Shown here piece by piece: positions 31,988-39,931 of a stretch of DNA of 64,000 nucleotides (its first letter is position 1; every line of letters begins with the position of its first letter). Origin of the DNA: Deferrivibrio essentukiensis (GTDB taxonomy: Bacteria > Chrysiogenota > Deferribacteres > Deferribacterales > Deferrivibrionaceae). Location of the stretch: NCBI RefSeq assembly GCF_020480685.1, contig NZ_JAJAFU010000001.1, positions 62,001-126,000 of the forward strand, in the 5' to 3' direction. The position numbers and the translations under genes are program-made. A model generated the notes under the pieces. The model saw only the letters and a list, made by a program, of their open reading frames with translations. It made no database searches and was not told the origin of the DNA.

Positions 31988-32030
31988 AAAATGCTTTACA
32001 AATTATAGTGGATAATATATAGAGTGAATT

Positions 32031-32093
32031 ATGAAAAATTTTAAAGTGAATTTAAATTTAACAGCTTGGTGGTGGACAGTAACAATAAGTTAG
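32031..32093 (+). CDS. trpL: trp operon leader peptide with three consecutive Trp codons
   Basis: A 20-residue ORF ending ...NLTAWWWTVTIS contains TGG TGG TGG at codons 13-15 and lies 127 bases before trpE. A weak GAGTG precedes the ATG. Three tandem Trp codons just before mutually exclusive hairpins is the textbook design of ribosome-mediated attenuation, in which stalling at the Trp codons signals low charged tRNA-Trp. Confidence 0.88.
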   Translation: MKNFKVNLNLTAWWWTVTIS

Positions 32094-32149
32094 GTTGTTC
32101 ACCATAAAACTATGTCGATAAGGGCCGTGTGGTGAGCAACCACACGGCC
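32079..32149 (+). promoter_or_regulatory. trp attenuator: pause, antiterminator and first terminator segments
   Basis: Segment 1 (within codons 14-19, about 32070-32085) can pair with segment 2 (TTGTTCACC). Segment 2, GGTTGTTCACCA (32093-32104), pairs over 12 positions, one of them G-U, with segment 3, TGGTGAGCAACC (32130-32141): the antiterminator. Segment 3 lies inside a perfect 11-bp hairpin, GGCCGTGTGGT (32123-32133) with ACCACACGGCC (32139-32149), then TTTT: the terminator. When ribosomes stall at the Trp codons, segment 1 is masked, 2:3 forms and transcription continues. Confidence 0.82.
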
Positions 32150-32165
32150 TTTTCTGTTATATTCT

Positions 32166-32198
32166 AAGGCCGTGGGATAAAACTCGCGGCCTTTTTTT
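32166..32198 (+). terminator. Second, tandem trp terminator hairpin before trpE
   Basis: AAGGCCGTGGG (32166-32176) pairs with CTCGCGGCCTT (32183-32193) around ATAAAA with two G-U pairs, and seven T follow (32192-32198). It is a stronger terminator, by U-run, than the first hairpin. Its 5' arm repeats GGCCGTG of the first hairpin, so it can also pair with that hairpin's 3' arm CACGGCC (32143-32149). AGGAGG for trpE begins 11 bases later. Confidence 0.8.
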
Positions 32199-32219
32199 AT
32201 ACCAAAAGGAGGATATAAA

Positions 32220-33689
32220 ATGCTTTTTCCGGATTTTGAGACATTTAAGGAAGATTTTAAAAAGTATGACAGAGTGCCTGTCTACAGAGAGATTGTGGGG
32301 GATACGTTTACACCTATTGCACTTCTAAGAAACTTTTCAAGTGAAGATAATCTGTTTATGCTTGAGAGTGCAAATTTGGATAAGACGTTTTCAAGATTTT
32401 CGTTTTTTGGGTTTAAGCCTAAAGAGGTATTAACCTTTAAAAACAGAAAACTTTATTCCTTAAAAAATGGGAAGAAAACTGAAATTGATATTAACCCTAT
32501 GGATTATCTCAATAACAATATCAAGACATTTAATGGAAAATATTATGATGATTTCGGAGATTTTACCGGTGGATATGTAGGTTACATCGGTTACGAGATG
32601 ATTAATTATATGGGGATTTTGAGAAACAGGATTAAAGAGCCAAGTCATGAAAGTTTAATGCAGCTGATGCTTATTGATGAATTTTATATTTTTGATAATC
32701 ACTTAGGAAAAATGTATTCATGTGTGTCCGTTGACTGTAAAGAAGATGCAGAGCAGGCATATGAAAAAGCAAAAAAAACAACACTAAAAATGGCTGAAAA
32801 ATTACACGGGCTGAATTTTGATAACTTTGAGACCGATGATAATTTTGATATCAATAGTGAATATGAGGAAAATGAATTTATTGAAACGGTTGAGAAGTTA
32901 AAGAAGGATATTTATGATGGCGAGGTAATACAGTGCGTAATCTCAAATAAATATGAAATAAATTCAAAAATAAATCCTTTAAGCCTTTACAGAGCGCTCA
33001 GAAATCTAAACCCGTCACCTTATATGTTTTATTTAAAGTTTAATGGTGAAGTTGTGTGCGGCTCGTCCCCTGAGATACACCTTAAGGTAAAAGATAGAGT
33101 TGCCACATTAAAGCCTATAGCGGGGACTTATCCTGTGGGAGAAAATCTTGATGAGATAAAGGGAAATCTTTTAAAGGATGAGAAGGAGCGAGCCGAGCAT
33201 CTTATGCTTTTGGATTTGGCAAGAAACGATTTATACACTTGCTGCAAACCTGAAAGTGTAAAGGTTAGCAAGTCCTTTGTGCCTGAAGTTTATTCTCATG
33301 TAATTCACATAGTTTCAGAAGTGACAGGTAAGCTAAACGATGATTCCTCAAATATTGAACTTTTTATGAATACATTTCCAGCAGGCACTGTAACAGGTGC
33401 ACCAAAGGTAAGGGCTATGGAGCTTATTGACAGTTATGAAAAAAGCCCGAGAGGATTTTATGCAGGCTGCACAGGGTATTTTTCTTACAGCGGTAATATG
33501 GATACCTGTATCACCATAAGAAGTGCAAAGGTAACAAACAGTAAGACTGTTTTCAGGGCAGGTGCAGGAATTGTCCACGATAGTGTCCCTGAGAAAGAGT
33601 ACAAAGAGGTGCAAGAAAAATTAAAGGCACTTTTCAAAGCTCTTGAAAGAATAAAAAATATGGAGAGGTACAATGTTTTTACTAATTGA
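32220..33689 (+). CDS. trpE: Anthranilate synthase component I
   Basis: TrpE makes anthranilate from chorismate with TrpG. The N-terminal domain keeps the tryptophan feedback motif (MLESANLDKTFSRFSF, residues about 41-56). The chorismate-binding domain has EVIQCVISNKYEI, YMFYLKFNGEVVCGSSPEIHL, KPIAGTYPVG, EHLMLLDLARNDL and FPAGTVTGAPKVRAMELID. At 489 residues it is full length. Expression is governed by the leader just upstream. The 3' end overlaps trpG by 17 bases. Confidence 0.97.
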   Translation: MLFPDFETFKEDFKKYDRVPVYREIVGDTFTPIALLRNFSSEDNLFMLESANLDKTFSRFSFFGFKPKEVLTFKNRKLYSLKNGKKTEIDINPMDYLNNNIKTFNGKYYDDFGDFTGGYVGYIGYEMINYMGILRNRIKEPSHESLMQLMLIDEFYIFDNHLGKMYSCVSVDCKEDAEQAYEKAKKTTLKMAEKLHGLNFDNFETDDNFDINSEYEENEFIETVEKLKKDIYDGEVIQCVISNKYEINSKINPLSLYRALRNLNPSPYMFYLKFNGEVVCGSSPEIHLKVKDRVATLKPIAGTYPVGENLDEIKGNLLKDEKERAEHLMLLDLARNDLYTCCKPESVKVSKSFVPEVYSHVIHIVSEVTGKLNDDSSNIELFMNTFPAGTVTGAPKVRAMELIDSYEKSPRGFYAGCTGYFSYSGNMDTCITIRSAKVTNSKTVFRAGAGIVHDSVPEKEYKEVQEKLKALFKALERIKNMERYNVFTN

Positions 33690-34227
33690 TAACTACGATT
33701 CCTTTACATTCAATCTTTTTGGGGTATTTAAAAAGCTTGGACAGGAGGTGAATGTTATTAAAAATGATGAATTTATCAAAGCTGACAACTATAAAGGGAT
33801 AATACTTTCTCCCGGGCCTTCAAATCCTGCTAATTCAGGGACAACTCTTAAATATTTAAATGAATATGCAGGCAAATTGCCTATTTTTGGTGTTTGCTTA
33901 GGGATGCAGGCAATAGGCTACTATCTGGGAAATCAAGTGAGAAATGCAAAAACGATAAAGCATGGTAAAGTTGAGGATGTAAAGGTTATTAAAGAGGATG
34001 TTTTATACTGTGGGATTCCGAAATTATTTAAGGCTGTCCGCTACCACTCCCTTGTGGTGGATATTGATGAAAATTTTATTACTTCAAAAAGTGTTTCCGA
34101 TAACGAGGCGATGTCCATAGAGATTCCTGAAAAGAAATTGTTTGGAGTCCAGTATCATCCCGAATCATTTTTAAGTGAGTATGGGGACAAAATAGTAGAA
34201 AATTTTGTAAAATATTGTGGAGGCTAA
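33673..34227 (+). CDS. trpG: Anthranilate/aminodeoxychorismate synthase glutaminase component
   Basis: This class I glutamine amidotransferase of 184 residues has LIDNYDSFTFNLF at the start, LSPGPSNPA, the nucleophile in FGVCLGMQAIGYYLG, and the His-Glu pair in VQYHPESFLSE. It supplies ammonia to TrpE. Because pabB lies in the same operon and no separate pabA is seen, it may serve both enzymes, as known for Bacillus subtilis. It overlaps trpE at its start. Confidence 0.95.
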   Translation: MFLLIDNYDSFTFNLFGVFKKLGQEVNVIKNDEFIKADNYKGIILSPGPSNPANSGTTLKYLNEYAGKLPIFGVCLGMQAIGYYLGNQVRNAKTIKHGKVEDVKVIKEDVLYCGIPKLFKAVRYHSLVVDIDENFITSKSVSDNEAMSIEIPEKKLFGVQYHPESFLSEYGDKIVENFVKYCGG

Positions 34228-34228
34228 A

Positions 34229-35215
34229 ATGGAAACATTAGTAAAAAAAATCAATTCTGAAGAAAGGTTGGCTTTTGATGAATATGTGAAGTTTTTTGAT
34301 TCGATGGTAAACGGCAGTCTGACTGATGCTCAGATTGGGTCAGCACTTATTGCACTGAGAATAAAGGGTGAAACCGAAGAAGAGATTTCAGCTGCTGCAA
34401 CAGTATTAAACAGATACAAGATAAAATTAGATGTTAAGCCTAAAAATAAAATAGATACTTGTGGCACAGGCGGGGATGGTAAATCAACTATAAATGTATC
34501 TACGATTGTTTCAATTGTATTGGGCAGCTTTGGGTTTAATGTTGTAAAGCATGGGAATGTGGCTCAAAGTGGTAAAGTAGGCTCAGCAGATATTTTGGAA
34601 ATTATGGGTGTCCCTGTGAAGTTGACTAAAGAGGATGCAGAAAAATTTTTATTAAAGCACAATTTTGTATTTCTCTTTGCACCAAATTATCACCCTATTC
34701 TCAAATCGGTGGGCAAAATAAGAAGGGAGCTAAAAGTGCCAACAATTTTTAACTACTTAGGCCCGATGTTAAATCCTGCAGACCCTGAGTATCAGCTTAT
34801 CGGAATAAACTCGGCCTCAAAGCTTGATGTTTATGCGAAAGCTTTAGTAAAAATGAATAAAACTAATGTTTTGGTAGTTTCATCAAAAGACGGTTATGAT
34901 GAGATTTCAAGTAATGATGTAACTTTTGCAAGAAAAATAACTGGCAAAGGTATTGAAGAGTTAGTGATTAATCCACAAGATTTTTTCAGCCCATTTGAAA
35001 TGCCACGGGTTGAAAGTAATGATGAGGCGAAAGAGCTTTTTAAGAGAGCTATTGAAGGTGCAGATGAAAAGCTTAATAACCTGATTGCAATAAATACGGC
35101 ATATGCATTTCAACTTATTGAAAATGACGATTTAAAAACAATTTTTGAGAAAGTTGTAAATAAACTTAAAAGCGGTGAAGTGAAAAAATATTTTGAAAGC
35201 TTAAGAGGTAATTAG
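34229..35215 (+). CDS. trpD: Anthranilate phosphoribosyltransferase
   Basis: TrpD transfers phosphoribose from PRPP to anthranilate. Motifs are the PRPP loop DTCGTGGDGKSTINVST near residue 73, VVKHGNVAQSGKVGSADILE, FLFAPNYHPILKSVGKIRRELK and FNYLGPMLNPA. I use ATG 34229 (328 residues), preceded by GTGGAGG; GTG 34217 would overlap trpG further. trpD is a separate gene here, not fused to trpG. Confidence 0.96.
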   Translation: METLVKKINSEERLAFDEYVKFFDSMVNGSLTDAQIGSALIALRIKGETEEEISAAATVLNRYKIKLDVKPKNKIDTCGTGGDGKSTINVSTIVSIVLGSFGFNVVKHGNVAQSGKVGSADILEIMGVPVKLTKEDAEKFLLKHNFVFLFAPNYHPILKSVGKIRRELKVPTIFNYLGPMLNPADPEYQLIGINSASKLDVYAKALVKMNKTNVLVVSSKDGYDEISSNDVTFARKITGKGIEELVINPQDFFSPFEMPRVESNDEAKELFKRAIEGADEKLNNLIAINTAYAFQLIENDDLKTIFEKVVNKLKSGEVKKYFESLRGN

Positions 35216-35968
35216 ATGTTGTCTAAAATTCTTGAAAATAAACGTATTGAGATAAATGGGCTGCAGGTGCCGAATATCGAAAGAAAAAAGGGAATAATTA
35301 ATCCTTTGCAGTTTTTAAAAAACAGACCTGTTATTGCCGAAGTAAAAAAAGCTTCCCCAAGTCTTGGAGACATTAATATAGACGTTAATGTTGTAGAGCA
35401 GGCAAAAAATTATGAAAAGGCGGGTGCCGGTGCAGTAAGTGTGCTTACGGATGAAAAATTCTTTAAAGGGAGTTTTAGTTATCTACAGCAGGTTGCTTCT
35501 CAGGTGAAGATTCCTGTTTTGTGTAAGGACTTTATAATTTCCAAAAAACAGATAGATTTAGCTTACAAATTTGGTGCAGATATTATTCTTTTGATAGTCA
35601 AGGCATTAAGTGAAAAAGAATATGTGGAGCTTTTTAATTATGCTAAAAGTCTTGGACTTTATGTTTTAACAGAAATTCATGAAAAAAAAGAGATTGCAGT
35701 AGCTGAAAAGGTAGAGGTAGATATTTTAGGTGTAAATTCGAGAAACCTTGAAACTCTTGAGATTGATAAGAAAAAGTGTGCAGAGATAATTTCAAGCCTC
35801 AGTAAAGGTTATTTTAAAGTAGCTGAGAGCGGAATCAACAGCAAGGAGGATGTGTTAATGTTTCAGGCAGCAGGTGCTGATGCATTTTTGATAGGCTCTT
35901 ATTTGATGCAATCAAAAATTCCGGGTGAAAAGATTTTGGAAATATATGAGAGTTTGAAATGTTTGTAA
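35216..35968 (+). CDS. trpC: Indole-3-glycerol phosphate synthase
   Basis: The TIM-barrel enzyme cyclises CdRP to indole-glycerol phosphate. It has VIAEVKKASPSLGDIN with catalytic Glu and Lys, GAGAVSVLTDEKFFKGS, VLCKDFIISKKQIDLA, LTEIHEKKE, LGVNSRNLETLEID and VAESGINSKEDV. The N-terminal extension is short (250 residues overall). The ATG directly follows the trpD stop with no gap. Confidence 0.96.
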   Translation: MLSKILENKRIEINGLQVPNIERKKGIINPLQFLKNRPVIAEVKKASPSLGDINIDVNVVEQAKNYEKAGAGAVSVLTDEKFFKGSFSYLQQVASQVKIPVLCKDFIISKKQIDLAYKFGADIILLIVKALSEKEYVELFNYAKSLGLYVLTEIHEKKEIAVAEKVEVDILGVNSRNLETLEIDKKKCAEIISSLSKGYFKVAESGINSKEDVLMFQAAGADAFLIGSYLMQSKIPGEKILEIYESLKCL

Positions 35969-36498
35969 AAGTATGTGGTATAAAAACTTTTGAACATATA
36001 GATTGGGCAATGTCTCTCGGGTATACTGCTGTAGGGGTAGTACTTTATAAAAAGAGCAAAAGATATGTCGATGATGATACAGCAAAAAAACTTGCTCAAT
36101 ATGCAAGGGGTAAGATTAAATCTGTTGCCGTTAGTGTTAGTTATGCAGATGTATCAAATGTAGAGGATAGTTTTGATTATATTCAGGTGTATGAGCAGAT
36201 AAATAAAAATAATCTCATTTTTGCGTCAAATGCCAAACCTTTAGATAATAACTTTAAGTATTTTTTATATGATAACAGTAAAGGCAGCGGTGAATTTGAA
36301 AGTTTTCCTGAGTGGTTAGAAATGCTCAGAAGTAAATTAATAATTGCCGGTGGGCTTAATTATAAAAATGTAAAAAATGTAATAAAACAGTATCAACCTT
36401 TTGGAGTTGATGTATCCTCAGGTGTGGAAAATGCACAGGGGGAAAAGGATTATGAGCTTATGAAAAAGTTTATAGAATCGGTAAAAGGTGGTGAATAA
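35959..36498 (+). CDS. trpF: Phosphoribosylanthranilate isomerase
   Basis: The product begins MFVKVCGIKTFEHIDWAMSLG, where the Cys in KVCGIK is the catalytic base, and ends with IIAGGLNYKNVKNVI and GVDVSSGVENAQGEKD, the phosphate-binding and C-terminal signatures. At 179 residues it is slightly shorter than the usual 200, mainly in the middle. It overlaps trpC by 10 bases. Confidence 0.95.
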   Translation: MFVKVCGIKTFEHIDWAMSLGYTAVGVVLYKKSKRYVDDDTAKKLAQYARGKIKSVAVSVSYADVSNVEDSFDYIQVYEQINKNNLIFASNAKPLDNNFKYFLYDNSKGSGEFESFPEWLEMLRSKLIIAGGLNYKNVKNVIKQYQPFGVDVSSGVENAQGEKDYELMKKFIESVKGGE

Positions 36499-37664
36499 TG
36501 AAAGGGTTTTACGGTGAATTTGGTGGCCAATTTGTGGCTGAGACTCTTATTCCGGTATTGGATGAGTTGGACAAGAGTTTTGAATTACTTAAATGTGATA
36601 AAGATTTTAATGATAAGCTGAATGACTTACTTAAAAACTATGCCGGCAGGCCTACCCCTATTTATTATGCAGAGAATATGTCAAAAAAATACGGGTGCAA
36701 GGTATATTTTAAAAGAGAAGATTTGCTGCATACCGGGGCTCACAAGATTAATAATTCATTAGGGCAGGCACTGTTGGCAAAAAAAATGGGGAAAAAGCGG
36801 ATAATTGCCGAGACAGGCGCAGGGCAGCACGGTGTGGCAACGGCAACGGTTGCAGCACTTTTAAACCTTAAGTGCACAGTTTATATGGGAAGTATTGATG
36901 CAAAAAGGCAGTCGATGAATGTAAAGCGTATGAAGATGCTTGGCGCGGAAGTGAAAGTAGTGGATGAGGGGACTAAGACTTTAAAAGATGCAGTAAGTGC
37001 AGCACTTAGAGAGTGGGTTTCAAGCTGTAATACTACTCATTATGTACTTGGGTCAGCATTGGGGCCGTATCCGTTTCCTAAGATTGTTTCTCATTTTCAG
37101 TCAGTGATAGGGAAGGAATCAAGGGAATATTTTGAAAACTTAGGGATTATGCCTGATTATATTATTGCCTGTGTCGGTGGTGGGAGCAACGCAATAGGAG
37201 TGTTTAAAGGTTTTTTAGATGTAGAAAGTGTAAGACTTGTTGGTGTCGAAGCGGGCGGAATTTCGGATAAAGATGGTGAACATGCAGCAAGGATGAGTTT
37301 TGGAAAGAAGGGTATATTTCAAGGGAGTTTGTCTTATGTTTTGACAGACAAATCGGGGCAGATTAGCAATGTCCACTCTGTGTCAGCTGGTCTTGATTAT
37401 GCGGGTGTTGGACCGGAGCATTCATTTTTAAAAGAGATAAAAAGATGTGAGTATCACTATGCAAGGGATAAAGAGGCTTTGGACGGGTGCTTAGAGCTTT
37501 GTAAGCTTGAGGGGATTCTTCCTGCCCTTGAGTCAAGCCATGCCGTTGGCTATTTCATAAAAAATGCATCAAAGTTTAAAGATAAAACTATACTTATAAA
37601 TCTTTCAGGAAGAGGGGATAAGGACTTGGAGATTATTTTGGAAAATATGGAGGGAACAATATGA
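36498..37664 (+). CDS. trpB: Tryptophan synthase beta chain
   Basis: TrpB condenses indole with serine. It has FYGEFGGQFVAETL, GRPTPIYYAENMSKKYG, the PLP lysine in HTGAHKINNSLGQALLAK, AETGAGQHGVATATVAAL, and the phosphate loop CVGGGSNAIGVF. The 388-residue length is canonical TrpB1. The ATG overlaps the trpF stop (TAATG). Confidence 0.97.
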   Translation: MKGFYGEFGGQFVAETLIPVLDELDKSFELLKCDKDFNDKLNDLLKNYAGRPTPIYYAENMSKKYGCKVYFKREDLLHTGAHKINNSLGQALLAKKMGKKRIIAETGAGQHGVATATVAALLNLKCTVYMGSIDAKRQSMNVKRMKMLGAEVKVVDEGTKTLKDAVSAALREWVSSCNTTHYVLGSALGPYPFPKIVSHFQSVIGKESREYFENLGIMPDYIIACVGGGSNAIGVFKGFLDVESVRLVGVEAGGISDKDGEHAARMSFGKKGIFQGSLSYVLTDKSGQISNVHSVSAGLDYAGVGPEHSFLKEIKRCEYHYARDKEALDGCLELCKLEGILPALESSHAVGYFIKNASKFKDKTILINLSGRGDKDLEIILENMEGTI

Positions 37665-38356
37665 AAGGTTTTTATATTTTAGGGGGGTATCCCGATATGA
37701 AGAAATTTGAAGAGGTTTTTAAGTATATTGCCGAAAAAGCGGATTTTGTTGAAGTAGGGTTAGCCTATAATGACCCTGTGGCAGACGGCCCCGTAATCGC
37801 TGAGGCTGCAAGCAAGGTTGTAAAGTCCAATATCAAAATAGATGATATTTTGAAGATTGTTGAAGCTTATAAAAAGTCAAAAGTTTACATTATGACATAC
37901 GCAAATATATTTTATCAGTACGGATTGAAAGAATTTTCTCAAAAATATAAAAATTTGATAAATGGTGTCATTATAGCTGATTTGCCAAATAGAATGCACA
38001 GCTTTTTTTACGATAACGGGTTTGATATTCCAGTAATTCCGTTTGTTACGCCTGAAAGCCGAGATGAAGATATTGAAGAGTTGAAAGGGTCCAAAGCGGA
38101 TTTTATATATTTTGTAGGTGTCAGAGGTGTAACAGGAAGTGAAGTAAATTTTCTGGATACTGAGTTGGTGGAAAAAGTACAATTTGTCAAAAAGGTGACT
38201 AACAAGAATGTTGTGTTTGGTTTTGGAATTAAAACTAAAAAAGATACTGAAAAGGTAATGACATATGCAGACGGATTTGTTATAGGGACTGAGGCGGTAA
38301 AAAGGCAAACAAATATTAATGAGTTTAAAAAGTATATCGAGTCGATTATTAGATGA
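37661..38356 (+). CDS. trpA: Tryptophan synthase alpha chain, short N-terminus
   Basis: TrpA cleaves indole-glycerol phosphate. The catalytic Glu (FVEVGLAYNDP) and Asp (NDPVADGPVI) are present, with FVTPESRDEDIEEL, GVRGVTGSEV and VVFGFGIKTKKDTEKV. At 231 residues it is about 30 shorter than usual: it starts MKGFYILGGYPD, so the N-terminal helix found before the first strand in E. coli TrpA is absent. The ATG has a GGAGG 7 bases upstream and the upstream in-frame region has no better start nearby. It overlaps trpB by 4 bases. Confidence 0.92.
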   Translation: MKGFYILGGYPDMKKFEEVFKYIAEKADFVEVGLAYNDPVADGPVIAEAASKVVKSNIKIDDILKIVEAYKKSKVYIMTYANIFYQYGLKEFSQKYKNLINGVIIADLPNRMHSFFYDNGFDIPVIPFVTPESRDEDIEELKGSKADFIYFVGVRGVTGSEVNFLDTELVEKVQFVKKVTNKNVVFGFGIKTKKDTEKVMTYADGFVIGTEAVKRQTNINEFKKYIESIIR

Positions 38357-39357
38357 TAAAGACCTCTGAGAAAAAAAGTTTAGTAATAAATAGTAAGAAC
38401 TTTTGCGATAAATTTAATAATTTTTACAATCGTGGCATACCGTTTATTTTTCTTATTGATTACAATATGAAAGAGTTTGTAATTGAAAAGCTTGAAGATG
38501 TTGAGCCTGAATTGATATTATTTGATTTTCCGGGTGCTAATAACGTTAAGCACAAGTGGAGTAGCGCAAAGTATACCCCCCTGTCATTTTCCCCTATATC
38601 GTATGAAACCTACAAGCTTGGATTTGATTATGTCAAAGATAATCTTATTCAGGGCAATAGTTATCTGACCAATTTTACGTGCAAAACTGAAATTTTTACA
38701 AATTTGTCACTAAATGACATCTTTCTGATAAGTAAGGCGAAATACAGGGTTAAATTTCTTGACAAATTTGTGTGTTTCTCCCCCGAAACTTTTGTGAAAG
38801 TAGATGGTGATTTTATTTACACGTATCCTATGAAAGGTACAATCAGTGCTGATTTACCTAATGCAAAAGATAAATTGTTAAATGACGAAAAAGAGATGGC
38901 AGAGCACATTACCATAGTTGACCTGCTAAGGAATGATCTCAATATGATTGCAGAGGATGTAACGGTTACAAAGTTTAGGTATGTAAGTGGGATAATAAGT
39001 CGAAAGAATAAGCTTTGGCAAACAAGCAGTGAAATTAGAGGACGGTTGCGTAAAAGCTTTAAAAACAGTATTGGGGAGAGTTTATTATCACTTTTGCCTG
39101 CAGGCTCGGTTACCGGAGCTCCAAAAAAAGAAACAGTAAAAATAATAAAAAATGCTGAAAAGTATGATAGAGGTTTTTATACCGGGATAGCGGGGGTGTT
39201 TGATGGAAAAATACTTGATTCCTGCGTTTTAATTAGGTTTATAGAAAATGATAATGGAAAGTTTTTCTATAAATCAGGCGGTGGGATAACCGTTTATTCG
39301 GATTGTCAAAGAGAATATAAGGAGATGCTTGATAAGATATATGTCCCTACTTTTTGA
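38353..39357 (+). CDS. pabB: Aminodeoxychorismate synthase component I
   Basis: A 334-residue chorismate-binding enzyme: LIQGNSYLTNFTCKTEI, FSPETFVKV, YTYPMKGTISADLP, EHITIVDLLRNDLNMIAEDV and LLPAGSVTGAPKKETVKII. The tryptophan-binding N-terminal part of TrpE is missing, the LRNDL and KGT motifs fit PabB better, and pabC follows, so I assign aminodeoxychorismate synthesis for folate. The start overlaps the trpA stop (ATGA), making it part of the trp transcript. Confidence 0.88.
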   Translation: MIKTSEKKSLVINSKNFCDKFNNFYNRGIPFIFLIDYNMKEFVIEKLEDVEPELILFDFPGANNVKHKWSSAKYTPLSFSPISYETYKLGFDYVKDNLIQGNSYLTNFTCKTEIFTNLSLNDIFLISKAKYRVKFLDKFVCFSPETFVKVDGDFIYTYPMKGTISADLPNAKDKLLNDEKEMAEHITIVDLLRNDLNMIAEDVTVTKFRYVSGIISRKNKLWQTSSEIRGRLRKSFKNSIGESLLSLLPAGSVTGAPKKETVKIIKNAEKYDRGFYTGIAGVFDGKILDSCVLIRFIENDNGKFFYKSGGGITVYSDCQREYKEMLDKIYVPTF

Positions 39358-39931
39358 AACAATTAAGCTATATAACGGCGTATTTTATAATTTGGAGTAT
39401 CATGAAAAAAGAATGGTGAATTCTGTTCATAATCTTTATGGGGTAAATGTTAATTTTTCCCTGAAAGAGCGCCTATATCTATTAAATTTACCTAAGTATG
39501 GACTTTATAAAGTAAAAGTTATTTATGACAGGGATGTCAAAGTGGTAGAAATCGCGGAGTATGAAAAAAGAAAAATTGATAGACTTTTTGCGGTCTTCAA
39601 TGACACTATAAATTATAGATTTAAATTTCTTGACAGAAAGTGCTTTGATATGTGTCAGACGGAGTCGCAAGCGGAGTTTTTATTTATTAAAAATGGCATA
39701 GTTACCGATACTACATTTTCAAATGTAGCTTTTTTTGACGGAAGAATGTGGGTTACCCCATCGACTTTTCTATTAAATGGAACCAAGAGACAGTATTATA
39801 TTGACAAAAACGTATTAAAAGTGGCGGATGTTCGTCTTACGGACATAGCAAAATATAAAAATATATCACTTATAAATGCCATGCTTGACTTGGAAGATAT
39901 TGTGATAGATATTAAAAACATTCATTTTTAG
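39341..39931 (+). CDS. pabC: Aminodeoxychorismate lyase-like class IV aminotransferase
   Basis: The product (MSLLFETIKLYNGVFYNLEYH) is a short fold-type IV PLP protein of 196 residues. Landmarks are EKRMVNSV, the candidate PLP lysine in YRFKFLDRK near residue 95, EFLFIKNGIVTDTTFSNVAFF, and WVTPSTFLLNGTKRQYY. Position right after pabB supports 4-amino-4-deoxychorismate lyase. It overlaps pabB by 17 bases; TTG 39329, closer to AGGAG, is an alternative start. It is shorter than most PabC (about 270), so activity is inferred. Confidence 0.8.
   Translation: MSLLFETIKLYNGVFYNLEYHEKRMVNSVHNLYGVNVNFSLKERLYLLNLPKYGLYKVKVIYDRDVKVVEIAEYEKRKIDRLFAVFNDTINYRFKFLDRKCFDMCQTESQAEFLFIKNGIVTDTTFSNVAFFDGRMWVTPSTFLLNGTKRQYYIDKNVLKVADVRLTDIAKYKNISLINAMLDLEDIVIDIKNIHF

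Follow-up and report, generated by a model that had tools for sequence, protein, structure and literature searches.

In the window, i.e. the whole 64,000-nucleotide stretch of Deferrivibrio essentukiensis DNA that was analysed, a tryptophan biosynthesis operon has the gene order trpE-G-D-C-F-B-A-pabB followed by a pabC-like gene, and trpE is preceded by a leader that contains a short open reading frame (ORF) with three consecutive Trp codons and two terminator-like hairpins, referred to here as T1 and T2 (Table 1). The 200-nt leader is far more stable than dinucleotide shuffles of it (fold z -7.5). The first-pass annotation of this DNA assigned pabBC to the operon; pabB is recognised (NCBIfam PRK07093, 456 bits versus a cut-off of 275) whereas the match of the pabC-like gene is weak (27 bits, below the cut-off).

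Table 1. Features of the trp leader and operon (coordinates are positions in the window)
Feature	Position	Strand	Details
Predicted -35 element TTTACA	31995..32000	+	Best-matching promoter within the region scanned 5' of the Trp codons
Predicted -10 element TATAGA	32018..32023	+	7 nt before the leader ATG
Leader peptide ORF, 20 codons, MKNFKVNLNLTAWWWTVTIS	32031..32093	+	ATG 32031, TAG 32091-32093
Three Trp codons (TGG TGG TGG, WWW)	32067..32075	+	Kept in 23/23 loci
Segment 1	32069..32083	+	1:2 fold
Segment 2, partner of 1 or 3	32093..32106	+	1:2 and 2:3 folds
Terminator-like hairpin T1 (3:4)	32120..32152	+	Stem 32120-32133/32139-32152, U-tract TTTTCTGTT
Segment 3 as antiterminator partner of segment 2	32128..32141	+	2:3 fold
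Strand 4 core CACGGCCTT, 3' arm of T1	32143..32151	+	Predicted partner of strand 5 once T1 is dissolved; covariation with strand 5
Terminator-like hairpin T2 (5:6)	32166..32193	+	Stem 32166-32176/32183-32193, U-tract 32192-32198 (TTTTTTT); 23/23 loci
Strand 5 core AAGGCCGTG, 5' arm of T2	32166..32174	+	Covariation with strand 4
trpE, first operon gene	32220..33689	+	AGGAGG 32207-32212; best match TIGR00564, 440 bits
trpG, trpD, trpC, trpF, trpB, trpA	33673..38356	+	
pabB and weakly matching pabC-like gene	38353..39931	+	

Conservation of the leader ORF and its promoter

Within the order, 24 genomes, that of Deferrivibrio among them, carry homologous trpE genes (approximately 60% identity, and 50% for the most distant), and 23 loci from six families were analysed, the 24th being truncated by a contig end. 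In all 23 loci TGGTGGTGG lies within a short ORF upstream of trpE, bearing out the first-pass annotation, which had described a leader ORF with WWW at this position.

In 20 of the 22 loci scanned, the top-scoring promoter has a -10 element whose end lies 5-9 nt upstream of the leader ATG; for the two exceptions (L020 and L024) a second candidate is seen by eye at the usual distance. This spacing would put the transcription start on the leader ATG or no more than a few bases from it, and the predicted promoter position makes a leaderless trp leader ORF probable. A promoter placement with this probable implication had been missed in the first-pass annotation.

The TRAP protein (PF02081) was found in none of the 46 genomes of the order, and no TrpR match in the order exceeds the curated cut-off, with sub-cut-off TrpR-like matches in two of the 46 genomes. 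No Rfam match in the window is above cut-off, and the best trp-related Rfam match, RF04312, reaches 22.8 bits versus a cut-off of 59. Control by a trans factor, i.e. a TRAP-like protein or a T-box, instead of ribosome stalling is highly improbable in our judgement: the WWW ORF is kept in 23/23 loci, and in this genome we found no TRAP match and no T-box (RF00230) upstream of the operon, on which grounds both were rejected. The observation that points in the direction of such a factor comes from one other genus of the order, in which two genomes have sub-cut-off T-box matches (G012:C108:16463-16724 and G023:C149:5751-6012, with 88.8 and 80.7 bits versus a cut-off of 93) a short distance 5' of a different trpE with 38% identity.

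Segments 1-4 and the first terminator

The pairings 1:2, 2:3 and 3:4 described in the first-pass annotation are all present. The 1:2 pairing (32069-32083 with 32089-32105; -15.8 kcal/mol) overlaps the Trp codons, and the 2:3 antiterminator and the 3:4 terminator are mutually exclusive. The helix lengths need revision: 2:3 (32093-32106 with 32128-32141) comprises 14 pairs, two of them G-U, and is slightly longer than the 12 positions given previously, and the supposed 11-bp perfect hairpin 3:4 (32120-32133 with 32139-32152) is indeed a hairpin but has 14 pairs including one G-U, followed by TTTTCTGTT. In the alignment 93.8% of the 3:4 cells are paired and six columns have two-sided changes. In total, the Trp codons and the pairings are kept in the relatives, with compensatory changes where these were counted; this conservation was one of the two conditions on which the first-pass annotation had made its reading depend. 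Judged from the sequence, ribosome-mediated trp attenuation almost certainly operates at this leader.

The T1 U-tract is good in most loci and degraded in one family (L006, L007 and L009). In these three loci the T1 hairpin itself is kept, as if it had been made a pure relay hairpin.

A predicted second terminator upstream of trpE

Two terminator-like hairpins are present in the leader in all 23 loci, and in each of them at least seven of the nine nt after T2 are U. The 5:6 alignment is paired in 99.4% of cells and has two-sided changes in eight columns. T2 and its complementarity to T1 were missed in the first-pass annotation, in which the attenuation mechanism was correctly recognised but the account was incomplete, with one terminator described where two are present. 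In the window, T2 ends 26 nt before trpE. With T2 so close to trpE and little room left for a promoter, the operon could be expressed only if T2 is switchable or leaky, and one antiterminator, 2:3, would not on its own let polymerase past T2. In the family of L006, L007 and L009, in which the T1 U-tract is degraded, T2 retains eight U and termination is probably carried by T2.

Tandem terminators were rejected as a common feature on the basis of the complete 2.36-Mb genome of a congener (same genus), which was scanned in stretches: among the 274 strong terminators on both strands there is one tandem pair, and this pair is T1-T2 of the trp leader. Likewise, hairpins of the type GGCCGTG...CRCGGCC occur only at T1 and T2 across five whole genomes, and the shared stem is therefore not taken to be an uptake motif or a motif common to terminators. 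The congener (G001) also has an attenuator with one terminator and a Phe-rich leader ORF, MKNLTFGLFKKSADSFFFNFFFFYFYKLRYTA (L120:3056-3151), upstream of a gene (L120:3235-4247) that we take to be a DAHP synthase gene; given this ordinary Phe attenuator, double terminators are not general to the attenuators of this lineage.

Strand 5 of T2 tracks strand 4 of T1

The 3' arm of T1 (strand 4) and the 5' arm of T2 (strand 5) are complementary across nine columns, with 96.9% of cells paired in a register that was set by hand in divergent loci; two-sided changes are present in seven of the nine columns, of which the first two, being A/U-rich terminator flanks, are weaker evidence than the others. Slid out of register, the two strands reach at most 46.9% pairing and one two-sided column. 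The 4:5 covariation score is 0.439 compared to 0.271 for shuffles (0 of 500 shuffles reach 0.439), and 8 of 362,880 permutations of the nine groups match or exceed the cognate 4:5 pairing, two controls that remove shared ancestry only in part. On a TrpE tree, parsimony reconstructs five changes on both sides of 4:5, each producing Watson-Crick pairs: in L009, L014, the clade of L017 and L013/L015/L023, the family of L006/L007/L009 and the genus of L011/L012/L022. In the congener genome, none of 272 other terminator arms fits strand 4 of T1 as well as strand 5 of T2 does.

These data bear on an ordinary single-switch attenuator, in which T1 would be regulated, T2 would be an unregulated leaky back-up or an mRNA-processing or stability hairpin and the complementarity would be a by-product. 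We consider this scheme unlikely. It leaves the tracking of strand 4 by strand 5 via two-sided changes unexplained, and a strong unregulated terminator 26 nt before trpE, with T2 kept in 23/23 loci, would throttle the operon permanently, although a T2 that is leaky would reduce and not abolish expression.

The lower stems of T1 and T2 are nearly identical in most species, and they are unique to the trp leader. This likeness could alternatively arise if T2 were a duplicate of T1, recombination (gene conversion) kept the two similar and strands 4 and 5 did not pair in the RNA. However, the upper stems, loops and linkers of T1 and T2 differ, and strand 6 lags behind the changes common to strands 4 and 5, with G-U pairs or mismatches in L009, L012, L014, L017 and L022. 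Moreover, among the cells in which 3:4 lacks a Watson-Crick pair, strand 5 complements strand 4 in 17 and is identical to strand 3 in one. By this count of 17 versus 1, gene conversion of T1 into T2 is disfavoured, and we regard it as very unlikely.

Folding energetics

For 20 of the 23 loci, the folding calculations give a probability of 0.9 or more that strand 4 captures strand 5 when the latter has just been completed. When strand 3 is removed, 5:6 outcompetes 4:5 at equilibrium in 21 of the 23; 4:5 forms before 5:6 but is metastable, with a modest calculated barrier to its conversion into 5:6 (approximately 7 kcal/mol in most loci). The computed barrier from 2:3 to 3:4 is 13-28 kcal/mol, i.e. 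in these calculations 2:3 versus 3:4 is in the same kinetic regime as 4:5 versus 5:6, with larger barriers. Since T2 is thermodynamically favoured over 4:5, a relay between the two terminators must be kinetic, and its effect in the cell may be partial.

The equilibrium preference for T2 is also a point in favour of a single regulated switch at T1, as is one genus (L013, L015 and L023) in which T2 is very strong, 4:5 is G-U-rich or degenerate and the barrier is approximately 2.8 kcal/mol. In these three loci T2 is replaced by a very stable 15-17 bp hairpin with little Watson-Crick complementarity to T1, and in L013 and L015 T2 is separated from trpE by several hundred bases of repeat-like sequence.

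Discussion

Combining the pairing, conservation and covariation data with the folding calculations, we suggest that the best explanation of this leader is ribosome-mediated trp attenuation in which a relay links two terminators, a reading that we give a probability of roughly 0.7. Taken by itself, the two-terminator relay is likely on the sequence evidence. In this model, when charged tRNA-Trp is ample, the ribosome would run to the leader stop codon and cover or release segment 2, 2:3 would be blocked, 3:4 would form and T1 would terminate transcription. Polymerase slipping past T1 would meet T2, and 5:6 would be free to form with strand 4 locked in T1, i.e. under Trp sufficiency the pairings 1:2, 3:4 and 5:6 would give two stops. 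Under Trp starvation, the ribosome would stall on WWW and cover segment 1, and 2:3 would form, which would prevent T1 and leave strand 4 single-stranded. Free strand 4 would then capture the emerging strand 5 in the 4:5 helix before strand 6 exists, T2 would be disarmed and trpE would be transcribed. With one sensor and two serial terminators, leakage should be multiplied down under plentiful Trp, which would be useful in a lineage with no detectable Trp repressor. The fuller proposal, in which one ribosome stall disarms two serial terminators via chained strand exchange and this relay has been selected across six Deferribacterota families, probably for tight shut-off without a Trp repressor, seems to us reasonably likely.

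A classical trp attenuator consists of a leader ORF with Trp codons, mutually exclusive 1:2, 2:3 and 3:4 pairings and a U-rich terminator upstream of trpE (PMC1183508, PMC1262725). The systems of E. coli (trpL), Rhizobiales, Corynebacterium and Streptomyces are similar to the leader described here in segments 1-4, in the Trp-codon ORF and in the U-rich terminator; by contrast, the leader described here belongs to the phylum Deferribacterota and has a second conserved terminator, the 5' arm of which is predicted to pair with the 3' arm of T1, and unlike E. coli this order has no TrpR match above the cut-off. In Sinorhizobium meliloti the attenuator RNA begins at the trpL ATG, i.e. it is leaderless, and the operon is without transcriptional repression (PMC7298713). 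The predicted leaderless start is a likeness between the two systems, whereas the published S. meliloti scheme has one terminator and the lineage is unrelated.

In the his attenuator the pairing order alternates, with A:B, C:D and E:F opposed to B:C and D:E. The trp leader has a corresponding chain of alternative helices, with 1:2, 3:4 and 5:6 opposed to 2:3 and 4:5 (the latter from covariation), and shares with his the further alternative hairpin. It differs from his in having Trp instead of His codons and in that, for most species, 3:4 and 5:6 alike resemble terminators followed by U-tracts; the last hairpin is not the sole terminator, as T1 has a U-tract in most loci. The family of L006, L007 and L009, in which the T1 U-tract is mostly lost, is closer to the his layout. 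For the his attenuator of Salmonella and E. coli, the extra hairpin ahead of the terminator has been proposed to minimise basal readthrough in a system without a repressor (PMC1183508). As argued by Elf and Ehrenberg, the E. coli trp attenuator tolerates high basal readthrough because TrpR also represses, and his cuts leakage by its extra hairpin (PMC1183508). A trp operon without a detectable repressor and with what would be a gained second switchable terminator may provide a natural test of this idea, and the loci in which the T1 U-tract is degraded or 4:5 is degenerate could serve as a natural mutant series.

More than one terminator or attenuation element in a leader has been described elsewhere. 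The rimP leader of some Gammaproteobacteria has tandem terminators and, at the upstream terminator, a potential antiterminator (PMC2965389); it differs from the leader here in being without a described amino-acid leader peptide and in having inverse motifs and not a chained strand exchange. The mgtCBR leader of Salmonella has more than one attenuation element and two separate short ORFs (PMC3641672), compared to the single sensor proposed here for both terminators. In the literature covered, which includes little from subscription journals, we found neither trp attenuation in Deferribacteres or Deferribacterota nor a chained double terminator. Serial terminators under one ribosome sensor via a strand-exchange relay would constitute a novel architecture, of which we found no description.

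In 2010 leader-peptide systems were stated to be known only from Proteobacteria and Actinobacteria, with Firmicutes added in the same work (PMC2965389). The first-pass annotation had placed this DNA probably outside Proteobacteria and Actinobacteria, and rightly so: the organism belongs to the Deferribacterota, and loci from the same order include those of the Deferribacteraceae MAGs UBA1873 and UBA6799. These sequences give good support to ribosome-mediated trp attenuation beyond Proteobacteria and Actinobacteria, and leader-peptide trp attenuation would thereby be extended to a phylum for which we found no published example. At the DNA level, the leader of the window retrieved only closer relatives when compared with the phylum, a search of viral contigs returned nothing and none of 78 trpE loci from other phyla has a Trp-rich ORF together with tandem terminators. 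In a MAG of the Deltaproteobacteria (L041), a Trp-rich short ORF and one terminator with a GGCCGTGGACAC stem lie upstream of trpE.
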